Position numbers and translations under genes: made by a program
Assembly (NCBI GenBank): GCA_947367795.1
Contig: CANBER010000009.1
Location: 1 to 36,433 of the forward strand
DNA length: 36,433 bases
Direction: 5' to 3'
DNA from: an uncultured Candidatus Saccharibacteria bacterium
GTDB lineage: Bacteria > Patescibacteriota > Saccharimonadia > Saccharimonadales > Saccharimonadaceae
Notes under the pieces: model-generated
What the model saw: only the letters and a program-made list of their open reading frames with translations
The model's database searches: none
Told to the model about the DNA's origin: nothing
Shown: positions 1 through 35,546 of the stretch, one piece after another
How the letters are laid out: each line of letters opens with the position of its first letter
How positions within the stretch are numbered: the first letter of the stretch is position 1

Positions 1-93
1 AATTCCACCGCCGACGAAGACCAGTTGTAGTTATTAGAACCGAAAAGCCTCAAAGAGCTAGTGTCCAGAGCAACATGTCCACTACGGACGAAG
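1..93 (-). repeat. DGR template/variable-repeat-like fragment, cut by window edge
   Basis: Read on the minus strand from 93 down to 1, this stretch aligns without gaps to 35274-35366 of the DGR template: by my hand count 63 of 93 positions match. Both begin with the same 15 nt (CTTCGTCCGTAGTGG). In the template frame it reads VRSGHVALDT, then SSLRLFGSNNYNWSSSAVEF. Five template Asn codons are H, A, D, T and L here, as adenine-directed mutagenesis would give; but about 21 of 30 differences fall at non-A template positions, so this is not a simple product of that template. An in-frame TAA lies just upstream (minus strand), and the other two frames are also closed, so it does not look translated. 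It may be a variable-repeat remnant, a second template, or the start of a target lost at the window edge. Confidence 0.75.
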
Positions 94-141
94 AATGATT
101 ATTTAGACTTTCTCGACTTAAATCATAGAGCTTGATGTTAT

Positions 142-276
142 GTGTCTAGTTCCTCTCTTCTGAGATCATGGACCTCCGAGTCCCAGGCTAGCGCGGGTCA
201 AAATCACGGCCCGAGCATAGCGAGGGATTCGATTTTGAGAGCGCCACCCCGATCGAAGAAGAGAGGAACTAGACAC
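142..276. repeat. Long structured inverted repeat
   Basis: A perfect 20-bp inverted repeat (142-161 with 257-276) encloses about 95 nt. Inside it, further arms pair in register: GATC 164-167 with 251-254, GCGC 191-194 with 241-244, and TCAAAATC 198-205 with GATTTTGA 231-238. The whole can fold as one long interrupted hairpin. No T-run follows on either strand, so a simple terminator for parB is unlikely. It lies between the parB stop and the template-like fragment; the remainder of 1-313 holds no gene I can support. Confidence 0.8.
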
Positions 277-313
277 GAGGGCATCAAGGTCTAATGATGG
301 GATATATCCAACC

Positions 314-32768: not shown

Positions 32769-33788
32769 ATGACAAAACCACCGTCTCTCAAGTCCTCAGA
32801 AATTGATCAATTCGAAAACCTGGATTTACATCAGCTCGAATCCAAACTCAAACAAATCGTCACCGGACCACCATCGCCCGAAAGCAAACGCTCCGCACGC
32901 ATCGTGCGCCAAGCCCTCCGCAGTCGTCAACGTCGTATCAAAGCCAAAGTTATGGAATTCGAGCAATCCAACAATCACCACCTCCTCCTTTTTGATTCTA
33001 CCGAAAACTTTTCCAAAATCGCCGGACACTCTGTCCTTTTTTATACTCTCACTATCGCCGACCGCATCCATCGCCGTTTCAGCATCAAAAACGACACTGA
33101 CGATTATTCCCGTTCCGAAGAAGGTATTGTCTCTATCCGCTCCCTCAGTCAGCTCGAAGCCCAACTCGCCAGCATCAACATCTTCCCCGACCGCGAGCTC
33201 AGCACCACCGAGCTTCATTTTTATAAACTTTCCAAATTCTACAGCGACGAACAACTTTCCAAGCTTCATGACCGCTCCAGGCAAGATATCGAACGCATCA
33301 CCTCAATCATTATCCCCAAATCTCCTATTCCTGCTCTCTACACCATCATTCTCGAGCTCAATCGCCTAATTTATTTTAATTGTAAGCGTATTTCCGATGG
33401 GCTCGCTCGCGAAACCCTAGTACATCAAATGATCTTTGACGCTAATGATATTTTGTCTAGTTATCTCAACTACGCCAACGCTCGTCCCCATACCAGCTCT
33501 ATTCGTCACCAGCTCCAAAATCACACCACCCTCGGCCAAACTCCTAGCTCCAGCACACCTCACCCTTCCACTCAAGCTCAAAATCTCTTCAATATTCTCT
33601 ATCATGCCCGCAATCTCCGCAATTACCTCGCCAATATGGAGAATCTCCGCCTCATCCATCATCGAGAGCTCTGTGATATGCTCGAAAAAATCGTCGAAAT
33701 CGAACACATCACCACCCGGGAATATAATAAACGCGCCCGCGAAGCCCGCATTCAAAAAATCTCCCAAGAGACCACCGGACATGAATGA
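32769..33788 (+). CDS. DGR accessory protein, possibly Avd-like C-terminal domain
   Basis: 339 residues, family not firmly recognised. The position directly upstream of, and overlapping, the RT (8 nt) is that of the accessory variability determinant (Avd) in other DGRs. The C-terminal part (about 195-330) is helical: PALYTIILELNRLIYFNCKR, a further helix, a Ser/Thr/Pro linker, then NILYHARNLRNYLANMENLR and LCDMLEKIVEIEHITTREYN; this could form the four-helix bundle of Avd, which binds template RNA and RT. The N-terminal 195 residues are extra compared with Avd of about 125 residues and are basic near the start (KRSARIVRQALRSRQRRIKA), suggesting nucleic-acid contact. TATAAT at 32730-32735; TTAGGA just before the ATG. 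Confidence 0.7.
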   Translation: MTKPPSLKSSEIDQFENLDLHQLESKLKQIVTGPPSPESKRSARIVRQALRSRQRRIKAKVMEFEQSNNHHLLLFDSTENFSKIAGHSVLFYTLTIADRIHRRFSIKNDTDDYSRSEEGIVSIRSLSQLEAQLASINIFPDRELSTTELHFYKLSKFYSDEQLSKLHDRSRQDIERITSIIIPKSPIPALYTIILELNRLIYFNCKRISDGLARETLVHQMIFDANDILSSYLNYANARPHTSSIRHQLQNHTTLGQTPSSSTPHPSTQAQNLFNILYHARNLRNYLANMENLRLIHHRELCDMLEKIVEIEHITTREYNKRAREARIQKISQETTGHE

Positions 33789-34932
33789 TTCTCGTTTCGC
33801 CAAATATCTCCTCACCGAACTCTGGACCGCCTATGACGCCGCTCGCAAAGGCAAACGTCACACCATTGACGAACACCGTTTCGAGCTCAATGATATTGAA
33901 GATATTATCAATTTACGCGACAGCATCATGCGTCGTTTCTATAAGCCGAGTCGGGGTGTCGCCTTCATCGTCCGCGACCCCGTCACCCGAGAAATCGTCG
34001 CCGCCCCCTTCCGCGATCGCGTAGTTCATCATTTTCTATTTAATATTTCCGCCGACTGGTGGGACCGTCGCTTCATTCCTGACTCCTATTCCTGCCGCAA
34101 AGGCAAAGGCACACTCTATGGCCAAAAGCGCCTCGCCAAGCATATCCGTCAAGTTACCAATAATTACACCATACCCGCCTACGCTGTCAAGCTTGACATC
34201 CAAGGGTATTTCATGAGCTTAAATCACGATAAACTCTACCAACGTATCCTCTGGGGGCTCGAGCAGCAATTTTATCATAGTGGGCACACCGATCTAAAAA
34301 ACCACATCCGCTGTCACCCCGAAGACAAAACCAAACTCTATTCTACCCTCCGTTATCTTTGGAAAGAAGTAATTTATGACCGCCCCATGCAAGATATCGC
34401 CATCCGTGGTAAACGCTCCGATTGGAAATATCTTCCTCGCACCAAAAGCCTTTTCGCTCAACCTCCCGATCGAGGCATCGTCATCGGTAACCTCACTAGT
34501 CAACTTCTATCTAATATTTTCCTTGATCAACTCGATCGCTTCATTCGTTTCGATCTCGGATATGTTCACTATGGACGCTACGTTGATGACTTTTTCATCA
34601 TCGTCCCCATGCCTCAGCGTGATCAATTACTTCGAGATATTGAAGTCATTCGCAAATATCTCCTCTTTGAGCTCGGGCTCACACTTCACCCTAAGAAACA
34701 ATACAAACAACCTGTTTCCTGTGGCGTTCCCTTTATCGGTACCGTGGTGTACCCGCATTTTATTTTACCCGGCAAGCGAGTTCGCAAAAACTGTTATCAA
34801 GCTGCTTACAAGCTTGCCACTCAGGGCGAAGGCGATCTTGACGGTTTCATCGCGCGCATGGGTTACATGAAACATATTAATAGTTACAAATTCCTCCAGC
34901 AACTTTTCGACAGTTTCGGCTGGGATTTCTAA
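33781..34932 (+). CDS. DGR-type reverse transcriptase
   Basis: 383 residues. RT motifs: REIVAAPFRDRVVHHFLF (motif 1, about 71-87), YAVKLDIQGYFMSLN with catalytic Asp139 (motif A), GIVIGNLTSQ (235-241 for IGNLTSQ; the DGR signature replacing the group II intron/retron form), YVDD at 267-270 (motif C) and LHPKKQYKQPVSCGVPFIGT (motif D/E). There is no maturase, endonuclease or retron VTG element. It copies template RNA into error-prone cDNA at adenines that then replaces a variable repeat in the target gene. The start ATG at 33781 overlaps the accessory gene. The gene ends 38 nt before the template promoter. Confidence 0.93.
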   Translation: MNDSRFAKYLLTELWTAYDAARKGKRHTIDEHRFELNDIEDIINLRDSIMRRFYKPSRGVAFIVRDPVTREIVAAPFRDRVVHHFLFNISADWWDRRFIPDSYSCRKGKGTLYGQKRLAKHIRQVTNNYTIPAYAVKLDIQGYFMSLNHDKLYQRILWGLEQQFYHSGHTDLKNHIRCHPEDKTKLYSTLRYLWKEVIYDRPMQDIAIRGKRSDWKYLPRTKSLFAQPPDRGIVIGNLTSQLLSNIFLDQLDRFIRFDLGYVHYGRYVDDFFIIVPMPQRDQLLRDIEVIRKYLLFELGLTLHPKKQYKQPVSCGVPFIGTVVYPHFILPGKRVRKNCYQAAYKLATQGEGDLDGFIARMGYMKHINSYKFLQQLFDSFGWDF

Positions 34933-34960
34933 AACCATAAGTTTTTCACCCACAACTACC

Positions 34961-34975
34961 TTTCTGTGCTATAAT
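34961..34975 (+). promoter_or_regulatory. Promoter of the DGR template RNA
   Basis: Extended -10 TGTGCTATAAT, TATAAT at 34970-34975; no good -35 is visible. It allows the template RNA to be made independently of the RT mRNA. Confidence 0.65.
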
Positions 34976-35273
34976 ATATATGTGGATACTTTGTCCATGG
35001 GACCGAAGAGTAGTAAATGAGGTCATGCTCCAGCTACTTAAAGTTCTCTTCATTTAAAGATCGTGAAGTTACCCTCAACAAATTCTCCAGGAGGAATTGA
35101 CGAGGCTATTACTGACTCTAGCCAAGGCTCGAGCTCGCTTCAAGTGAACTTCCCAACCTAACGACCTGTTCTGTATCCCAGTTCCGGTTTCCGGTCGTCC
35201 CCTCCGGGTGGGCATAGCATTTACAGTATCAGAAGCACGTTCGCTTAGGCTATCTAAGTGCACTTCGGACTTC

Positions 35274-35472
35274 CTTCGTCCGTAGTGGGAACGTCAATCT
35301 GAACAACGGTTCTCTGAGGAACTTCGGCATCAATGGTTACGGTTGGTCTTCGTCATCCGTGGCGTTCACCTCTGTTACTTCTGCTACCGCGTACAACCTC
35401 AACTTCAATGCGTCTGGCGTCAACCCGTCGAACGGCCCGAACAATCGTTGGAACGGTTTCCCCATCCGCTGC
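35274..35472 (+). repeat. DGR template repeat (TR)
   Basis: In the frame of 35281 it reads as the end of a Fib_succ_major/FGE-lectin-like domain: VRSGNVNLNNGSLRNFGING, then YGWSSSSVAF, TSVTSATAYNLNFNASGVNP and SNGPNNRWNGFPIRC. It holds 14 Asn codons (10 AAC, 4 AAT), clustered where lectin-fold DGR targets vary, while the framework residues (W-S-S-S, R-W-N-G-F-P-I-R-C) use few adenines. Translation is blocked upstream by an in-frame TAG near 35213, so the copy is a template, not a gene. The 5' limit is set by identity with the fragment at 1-93; the 3' limit is approximate. Confidence 0.88.
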
Positions 35473-35517
35473 CTATTTTGCCGCGGTTCGGTGCCGATCT
35501 TTTATTTATTCAAACCC

Positions 35518-35546
35518 AAACTCTGCTTCCACGGAAGCAGAGTTTT
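35518..35546 (+). terminator. Terminator of the DGR template RNA
   Basis: Stem CTCTGCTTCC (35521-35530) with GGAAGCAGAG (35533-35542), extendable by three A-T pairs, then TTTT. Confidence 0.85.

Follow-up and report, generated by a model that had tools for sequence, protein, structure and literature searches.

A DGR core with a separate template RNA unit and a possible archive of start-less cassettes in an uncultured Candidatus Saccharibacteria genome

The stretch of DNA analysed here, referred to as the window, is 36,433 nucleotides long and constitutes contig C9 of an 860,540-bp genome (94.6% complete, 0.14% contaminated) of an uncultured Candidatus Saccharibacteria bacterium. Positions 32769-35546 hold a DGR core composed of an Avd-like accessory gene, a DGR-type reverse transcriptase (RT) gene and a separately promoted and terminated template RNA; this assignment is solid, the promoter being a prediction. 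The features of the window to which we refer below are the following:

32769..33788, plus strand: accessory protein gene, an ORF of 339 aa with an Avd-like C-terminal helical bundle at residues about 184-325
33781..34932, plus strand, ATG at 33781: DGR-type reverse transcriptase gene, an ORF of 383 aa with IGNLTSQ and YVDD (RVT_1)
34967..34975, plus strand: predicted extended -10 promoter of the template RNA, TGCTATAAT, recognised from the sequence and similarly spaced in related units
34985..35078, plus strand: conserved structured leader of the template RNA, defined by leader alignment, fold and model match
35059-35070, plus strand: leader motif GATCGTGAAGTT, within the conserved leader
35272..35475, plus strand: template repeat (TR) with 39 adenines, delimited by the limits of its match to the variable repeat (VR) copies and by adenine bias
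35460..35471, plus strand: GC-rich 3' block CCCCATCCGCTG common to the TR and the VRs, inferred from the alignment of VR 3' ends to be an IMH-like site
35519..35546, plus strand: terminator-like hairpin and T-run closing the template RNA, recognised from the sequence
1..98, minus strand: partial VR cassette, start-less and truncated where the contig ends, its 77 terminal bases identical to the start of contig C3

An initial annotation of this DNA had described an accessory ORF overlapping the RT ORF by 8 nt, and an RT carrying IGNLTSQ and YVDD. The ORF list and the sequence agree with this overlap and with the coordinates given for it, and both motifs were found in the RT translation. An SQ motif of the form (I/V/L)GxxxSQ, accompanied by YxDD, is a published hallmark of DGR RTs (PMC3521204), and by this motif criterion the predicted protein belongs to the DGR type. 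The family check which the annotation had proposed was run by profile and PDB matching and pointed in the same direction: the best solved-structure match of the RT was the BPP-1 DGR RT (PDB 8ub7, E 1.7e-23), followed by Drt2 (E 5e-5), and PHROG 1423 (reverse transcriptase) was matched at E 5.6e-70. A retron or group II intron identity was rejected, as the group II model scored 67 bits against a cut-off of 300, the retron St85 model scored 30 bits against a cut-off of 235, and the best PDB match was a DGR RT. A search of the genome with this RT as query returned no further RT matches; RTs 74-80% identical to it occur on other contigs from uncultured Candidatus Saccharibacteria.

Sequence-family searches gave no match for the accessory protein. 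Its gene is kept upstream of the RT gene in related Saccharibacteria, at 21-71% identity, and its fold was predicted with a pLDDT of 85. The C-terminal part of the predicted structure matched Avd (4dwl) with a Z of 13.6 and an rmsd of 1.7 over 109 residues, and the fold reached the same Z of 13.6 against Avd in the DGR RNP (8ub8). All fold matches were restricted to residues 184-339, with none for the N-terminal domain. Because unrelated helical bundles score a Z of about 12 against this fold, the Avd-like assignment rests on fold and gene position and not on fold alone; on that combined basis the upstream overlapping gene is predicted to encode an Avd-like DGR accessory protein.

The annotation had further proposed that a template RNA of roughly 565 nt, rich in Asn codons, starts from an extended -10 located 38 nt past the RT stop and ends at a perfect terminator. 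Each of these elements was recovered: the extended -10 lies at that distance, the perfect hairpin AACTCTGCTTC-CACG-GAAGCAGAGTT with its T-run ends at about 35546, and the template is Asn-rich and open in the frame starting at 35275. The length of about 565 nt follows from the positions of the promoter (34967-34975) and of the hairpin and T-run. A template RNA with its own promoter and terminator is thus supported from the sequence; its transcription is inferred. Across 18 related template-RNA units found in five genomes, most have a promoter in the corresponding place, about 80 nt ahead of the leader motif. The fold of these 18 leaders comprises 14 pairs, and in 9 of them pairing is retained through two-sided changes; a search of the window against Rfam gave no match. 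It has been stated previously that template RNA and RT mRNA are not necessarily a single molecule (PMC3521204).

Comparison of the TR with the genome yielded 66 BLAST matches, the best of them outside the TR itself having an E of 7e-75, a signal well above anything attributable to chance, and a more sensitive search gave, after merging, 73 VR intervals on 32 contigs. In the 23 well-preserved full-length VRs, 447 of 897 adenine cells (49.8%) were changed relative to the TR, as compared to 131 of 1449 for C (9.0%), 59 of 1081 for G (5.5%) and 105 of 1265 for T (8.3%). The corresponding Fisher p of 2e-171 is nominal, since the VR copies are related and not independent, and the ratio of adenine to non-adenine change therefore carries more weight than the p value. 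The TR/VR pairs differ mainly at TR adenines, and in this they fulfil the DGR criterion. Contamination was rejected as a source of the cassettes, which sit on large contigs of a genome in which it amounts to 0.14%. A separate observation concerns TR positions 71-95 (window about 35343-35367), where non-adenine sites differ in 30-78% of the well-preserved VRs; this concentration of non-A changes probably means that the TR was altered there or that a second source existed.

These copies bear on several expectations raised by the annotation. The genome-wide search for mismatch-bearing template copies which it had suggested retrieved dozens, with the mismatches concentrated at adenines. Its claim that no target lies nearby holds for full target genes, none of which occurs within 33 kb, but not for the partial VR cassette at positions 1-98 of the window. 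Action in trans, which it had deduced, is supported by the genome-wide targets and by the 9-12 template-RNA units per genome found in relatives, mostly off the RT contig. It had also anticipated VRs at the 3' ends of ORFs; VRs do exist genome-wide, but they are mostly start-less intergenic cassettes.

Only 5 of the 73 VRs overlapped called ORFs of at least 100 aa, compared to 87% for random placements (the coding fraction of the genome is 86%). Among the 65 cassettes with an assembled VR start, any in-frame ATG, GTG or TTG was present upstream in 17, an in-frame upstream ATG in 6 and a start with an SD-like site in 2; tracing back from the VR, an in-frame stop was met after a median of 15 codons. 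An N-terminal domain is absent from nearly all of the cassettes. The TR frame was free of stops in 22 of 25 strongly diverged copies; coding in any other frame was ruled out by stops in 22 to 25 of the 25 copies in each of the five remaining frames. Non-A substitutions in the same copies were distributed over codon positions 1, 2 and 3 as 0.35, 0.27 and 0.52. As the frame is kept and third positions show an excess, the cassette sequence has been under past selection as protein, although part of this conservation could stem from replacement of cassette sequence by that of the TR or of a full-length copy, and not from use of the cassettes. A different genetic code was also considered and rejected, the long genes of the window being intact under table 11. 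The codons YNIASPPLS stand ahead of the VR in 34 of 67 cassettes, a common 3' piece follows it in 24 of 58, and many copies display a TATAAT just upstream. The best reading of these features is that each cassette holds a coding 3' end, about 200 bp long, from a single family of secreted FISUMP-type proteins.

One full-length gene of the cassette type was found in this genome, on the minus strand of contig C19, where it runs off the contig start; the contig ends before the VR, which is consequently outside the assembly. In the sister genome G024, one 620-aa ORF terminates in a VR, and the codons preceding that VR read YNIAREPLY, matching the cassette piece YNIASPPLS. Because the upstream and 3' pieces match the full-length gene, the cassette flanks belong to the target gene and not to the TR RNA. 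One ortholog of the C19 gene was found per relative, and other species of the genus possess conventional full-length targets, about 500-700 aa in length, whose VR is C-terminal. A VR at the 3' end of a coding target is thus seen in the G024 ortholog and in those other species, while the assembled VRs of the present genome are start-less. Contig C15 ends in the same 77 bases as C19, here with a different flank and as a start-less piece of the constant region. A 612-aa VR-holding ORF in G064 was rejected as a target, since it consists of a cassette whose frame continues into the gene that follows. The AlphaFold model of the target had a pLDDT of 45 and was not relied on.

Four further complete FISUMP-like proteins are encoded in the genome (C2, C6, C27 and C37), each with a different C-terminal sequence, so that designating the C19 gene as a single expression site rests on the similarity of its constant region to the cassettes. 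One full-length copy and about 65 truncated, start-less copies satisfy the criterion for a silent-cassette system. That the full-length gene is expressed, that it is the only expression site, and that its product has a role or is exposed at the surface, are inferences.

In G024, the full-length gene has a VR that does not differ at any position from a start-less cassette on another contig (C27/C19); the alignment of the two spans 221 columns and contains a single gap, located immediately beyond the VR. Through this pair, tracts common to silent copies and the full-length gene are established. In the genome under study only cassette-to-cassette shared tracts are visible: 104 identical bp carrying 15 derived differences in the C21 and C19 cassettes, 77 identical bp carrying 12 in C19 and C10, and 77 identical bp carrying 29 in C3 and C9. 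The overlaps of contig ends measure 77 bases, with one exception of 34, which is the trace of a k = 77 assembly graph; the 77-bp tracts at contig ends are therefore lower bounds. Contig ends fell within VRs 20 times, against 1.1 expected, and in six genomes (G000, G013, G064, G065, G066 and G024) the contig breaks off at the 3' part of the same target gene, the end in G024 lying 29 bp after the target-gene stop. Since any repeat family breaks assemblies, such breaks show repetition and junctions, and do not by themselves show recombination in the living cell. Shared tracts and junctions show copying, not its rate or direction. RecA is encoded in the genome. All of the genomes are draft MAGs, the sequence of contig C38 is given as N, and any direction of conversion is without reads or transcripts behind it. 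A long G-rich run terminates contig C11 and another adjoins the start of C12, which is probably an assembly artefact.

Related genomes contain comparable collections. VR-profile matches, a count that includes TR units and any full-length genes, numbered 80 in the present genome, 133 in G024, 88 in G013, and 77, 84 and 88 in G064-G066, respectively; G030, which belongs to the same genus, had 31 such matches and no RT match at E 1e-10. A search of the relatives for the leader core motif disclosed stand-alone TR units across many contigs. With the leader model, 12 units were detected in G065, 10 in G064, 9 in G024 (one of them weak), 3 in G014, and one each in G013, G066 and the genome under study; units used in building the model match it by construction, and at E 0.01 it found no unit in 25 other genomes of the genus. 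No TR was seen within about 1 kb after the RT in G064 and G065. Two units of G024 (C14 about 1306-1700 and C11 about 257-600) consist of a leader joined to a VR-type body and a VR-type 3' end, which suggests that TRs are also overwritten at times.

The reading that we favour, to which we assign a probability of about 0.7, is a two-tier diversification in which a DGR acting in trans, an archive of silent cassettes and one full-length gene are linked by gene conversion. It sets out from what was observed, namely the parts of the system, the adenine bias, the intergenic and start-less placement of the cassettes, the conservation of their frame, the shared tracts, the identity of VR and cassette in G024, and the conserved RNA. 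The RT and the accessory protein would use the separately transcribed and terminated template RNA, with its structured leader, to produce adenine-mutated cDNA; cDNA priming and mutagenic retrohoming activity are, like the transcription of this RNA, inferred. The mutated cDNA would then replace VR sequence in trans, genome-wide, direct homing into the cassettes being again an inference. Most VRs would be the about 70 start-less intergenic cassettes, serving as a silent archive, and RecA-type homologous recombination may copy cassettes, or segments of them, among themselves and into the single full-length gene (C19), in a direction that is likewise inferred. The DGR identity is solid; the archive mechanism remains an inference.

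One possible alternative, which we regard as unlikely, is that an ordinary multi-target DGR has left debris behind, the cassettes being roleless by-products that arose as mis-integrated cDNA or duplicated 3' ends. Such by-products might well be devoid of start codons and lie between genes, as the cassettes do, and the cassettes of G024 and G066 are often sharp-edged near the VR limits, like stray VR-length insertions. The most diverged copies, however, keep the frame and the third-position bias; mosaic tracts run among the cassettes, one of which has the same sequence as a full-length gene's VR, and about 70 to 130 copies per genome have been retained in several species with small genomes. Debris with occasional recombination cannot be excluded.

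We consider it improbable that each cassette is an independent small gene whose translation begins at a non-canonical start or results from read-through of the gene upstream. The piece upstream of the VR is missing from nearly half of the cassettes and, where present, codes for the full-length gene's constant region; the median position of in-frame stops is 15 codons upstream, the flanks vary between copies, and a cassette encodes merely part of a FISUMP-type domain. These points outweigh, in our view, the conserved frame, the upstream TATAAT that could serve as a -10 in many copies, and the position of some cassettes in frame directly past the stop of a neighbouring gene. Least probable is a retrotransposon-like, SINE-like repeat, whose template RNA would be reverse transcribed and inserted anew so that the copies are mutated insertions: the abrupt edges that many copies show close to the TR limits, the location of cassettes beside tRNAs and terminators and the dispersal of the template RNA units themselves in relatives would fit, and such insertion could still be the origin of the cassettes, but the flanks that they share (YNIASPPLS, the stop codon and the 3' end) correspond to the target gene and not to the TR RNA, and coding constraint is unexpected for copies of this kind. 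None of the three, debris, mini-genes or retrotransposition, explains flanks, frame and tracts together.

Two-tier diversification may not be confined to this genome. In this clade of Saccharibacteria the DGR appears to have been rebuilt as a repertoire, with one RT, one to a dozen trans template RNAs, 70 to 130 cassettes and a single expression site that draws on the archive through gene conversion, which would make random mutation and display distinct steps; we hold this wider proposal to be probable, with less assurance than the reading for the genome itself.

The system resembles DGRs of the BPP-1 type and of CPR/Patescibacteria in its SQ-motif RT with YVDD, its Avd-like partner, the adenine-specific change between TR and VR, the FISUMP-like target family and the GC-rich 3' end of the VR. 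In a large survey, 92.6% of DGR VRs were found inside ORFs, and DGRs with many VRs were reported (PMC6642488). The present system differs from DGRs in that its template RNA forms a gene apart, equipped with a promoter (as predicted), a leader and a terminator, and present in 9-12 units in three relatives, and in that most of its VRs are start-less intergenic cassettes.

In Neisseria pilS/pilE and Anaplasma msp2/p44, 5'-truncated, start-less and dispersed copies recombine into one expression locus. To our knowledge, no retroelement takes part in either of these, and diversity stems solely from existing copies. The cassettes described here are similarly start-less, 5'-truncated and dispersed, and differ in that a retroelement is involved. 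Borrelia vls offers a further likeness: there, one full-length gene is accompanied by numerous silent copies that each hold part of a single coding segment, with segmental identity between them (PMC11499132). The vls cassettes form a contiguous plasmid array without an RT or template-driven mutation, whereas those of the present genome are dispersed over chromosome contigs and carry the DGR adenine signature. No report of start-less VR cassettes or of a DGR cassette archive was found in a literature search that did not extend to most subscription papers. DGRs and silent-cassette conversion are each already known, and they seem to be combined here within a single genome.

If the two are indeed joined, a genome of less than 1 Mb could store many variants and test them singly in one secreted protein, with the archive refilled by targeted mutation, like a small repertoire. 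This would explain how Saccharibacteria might keep changing a secreted protein, and it would also mean that gene-based DGR surveys miss most VRs in such genomes. The natural occurrence of template-RNA units apart from the RT would render the use of templates in trans directly testable.

The cassettes adjoin tRNAs, terminators and gene ends, and are arranged singly, in tandem or convergently. Facing pairs, separated by a few to about 80 bases, are located, for example, at C22:559-966, C4:27050-27342 and C26:8536-9012, and long hairpins could arise in transcripts that cross such a pair. A palindromic intergenic repeat, GTGTCTAGTTCCTCTCTTC...CGGGTCAAAATC..., occupies window positions 110-310 and is also found on C5, C7, C20, C22, C26 and C28; several of its copies lie 33-103 bp from a VR cassette, where they may mark insertion sites or aid recombination.
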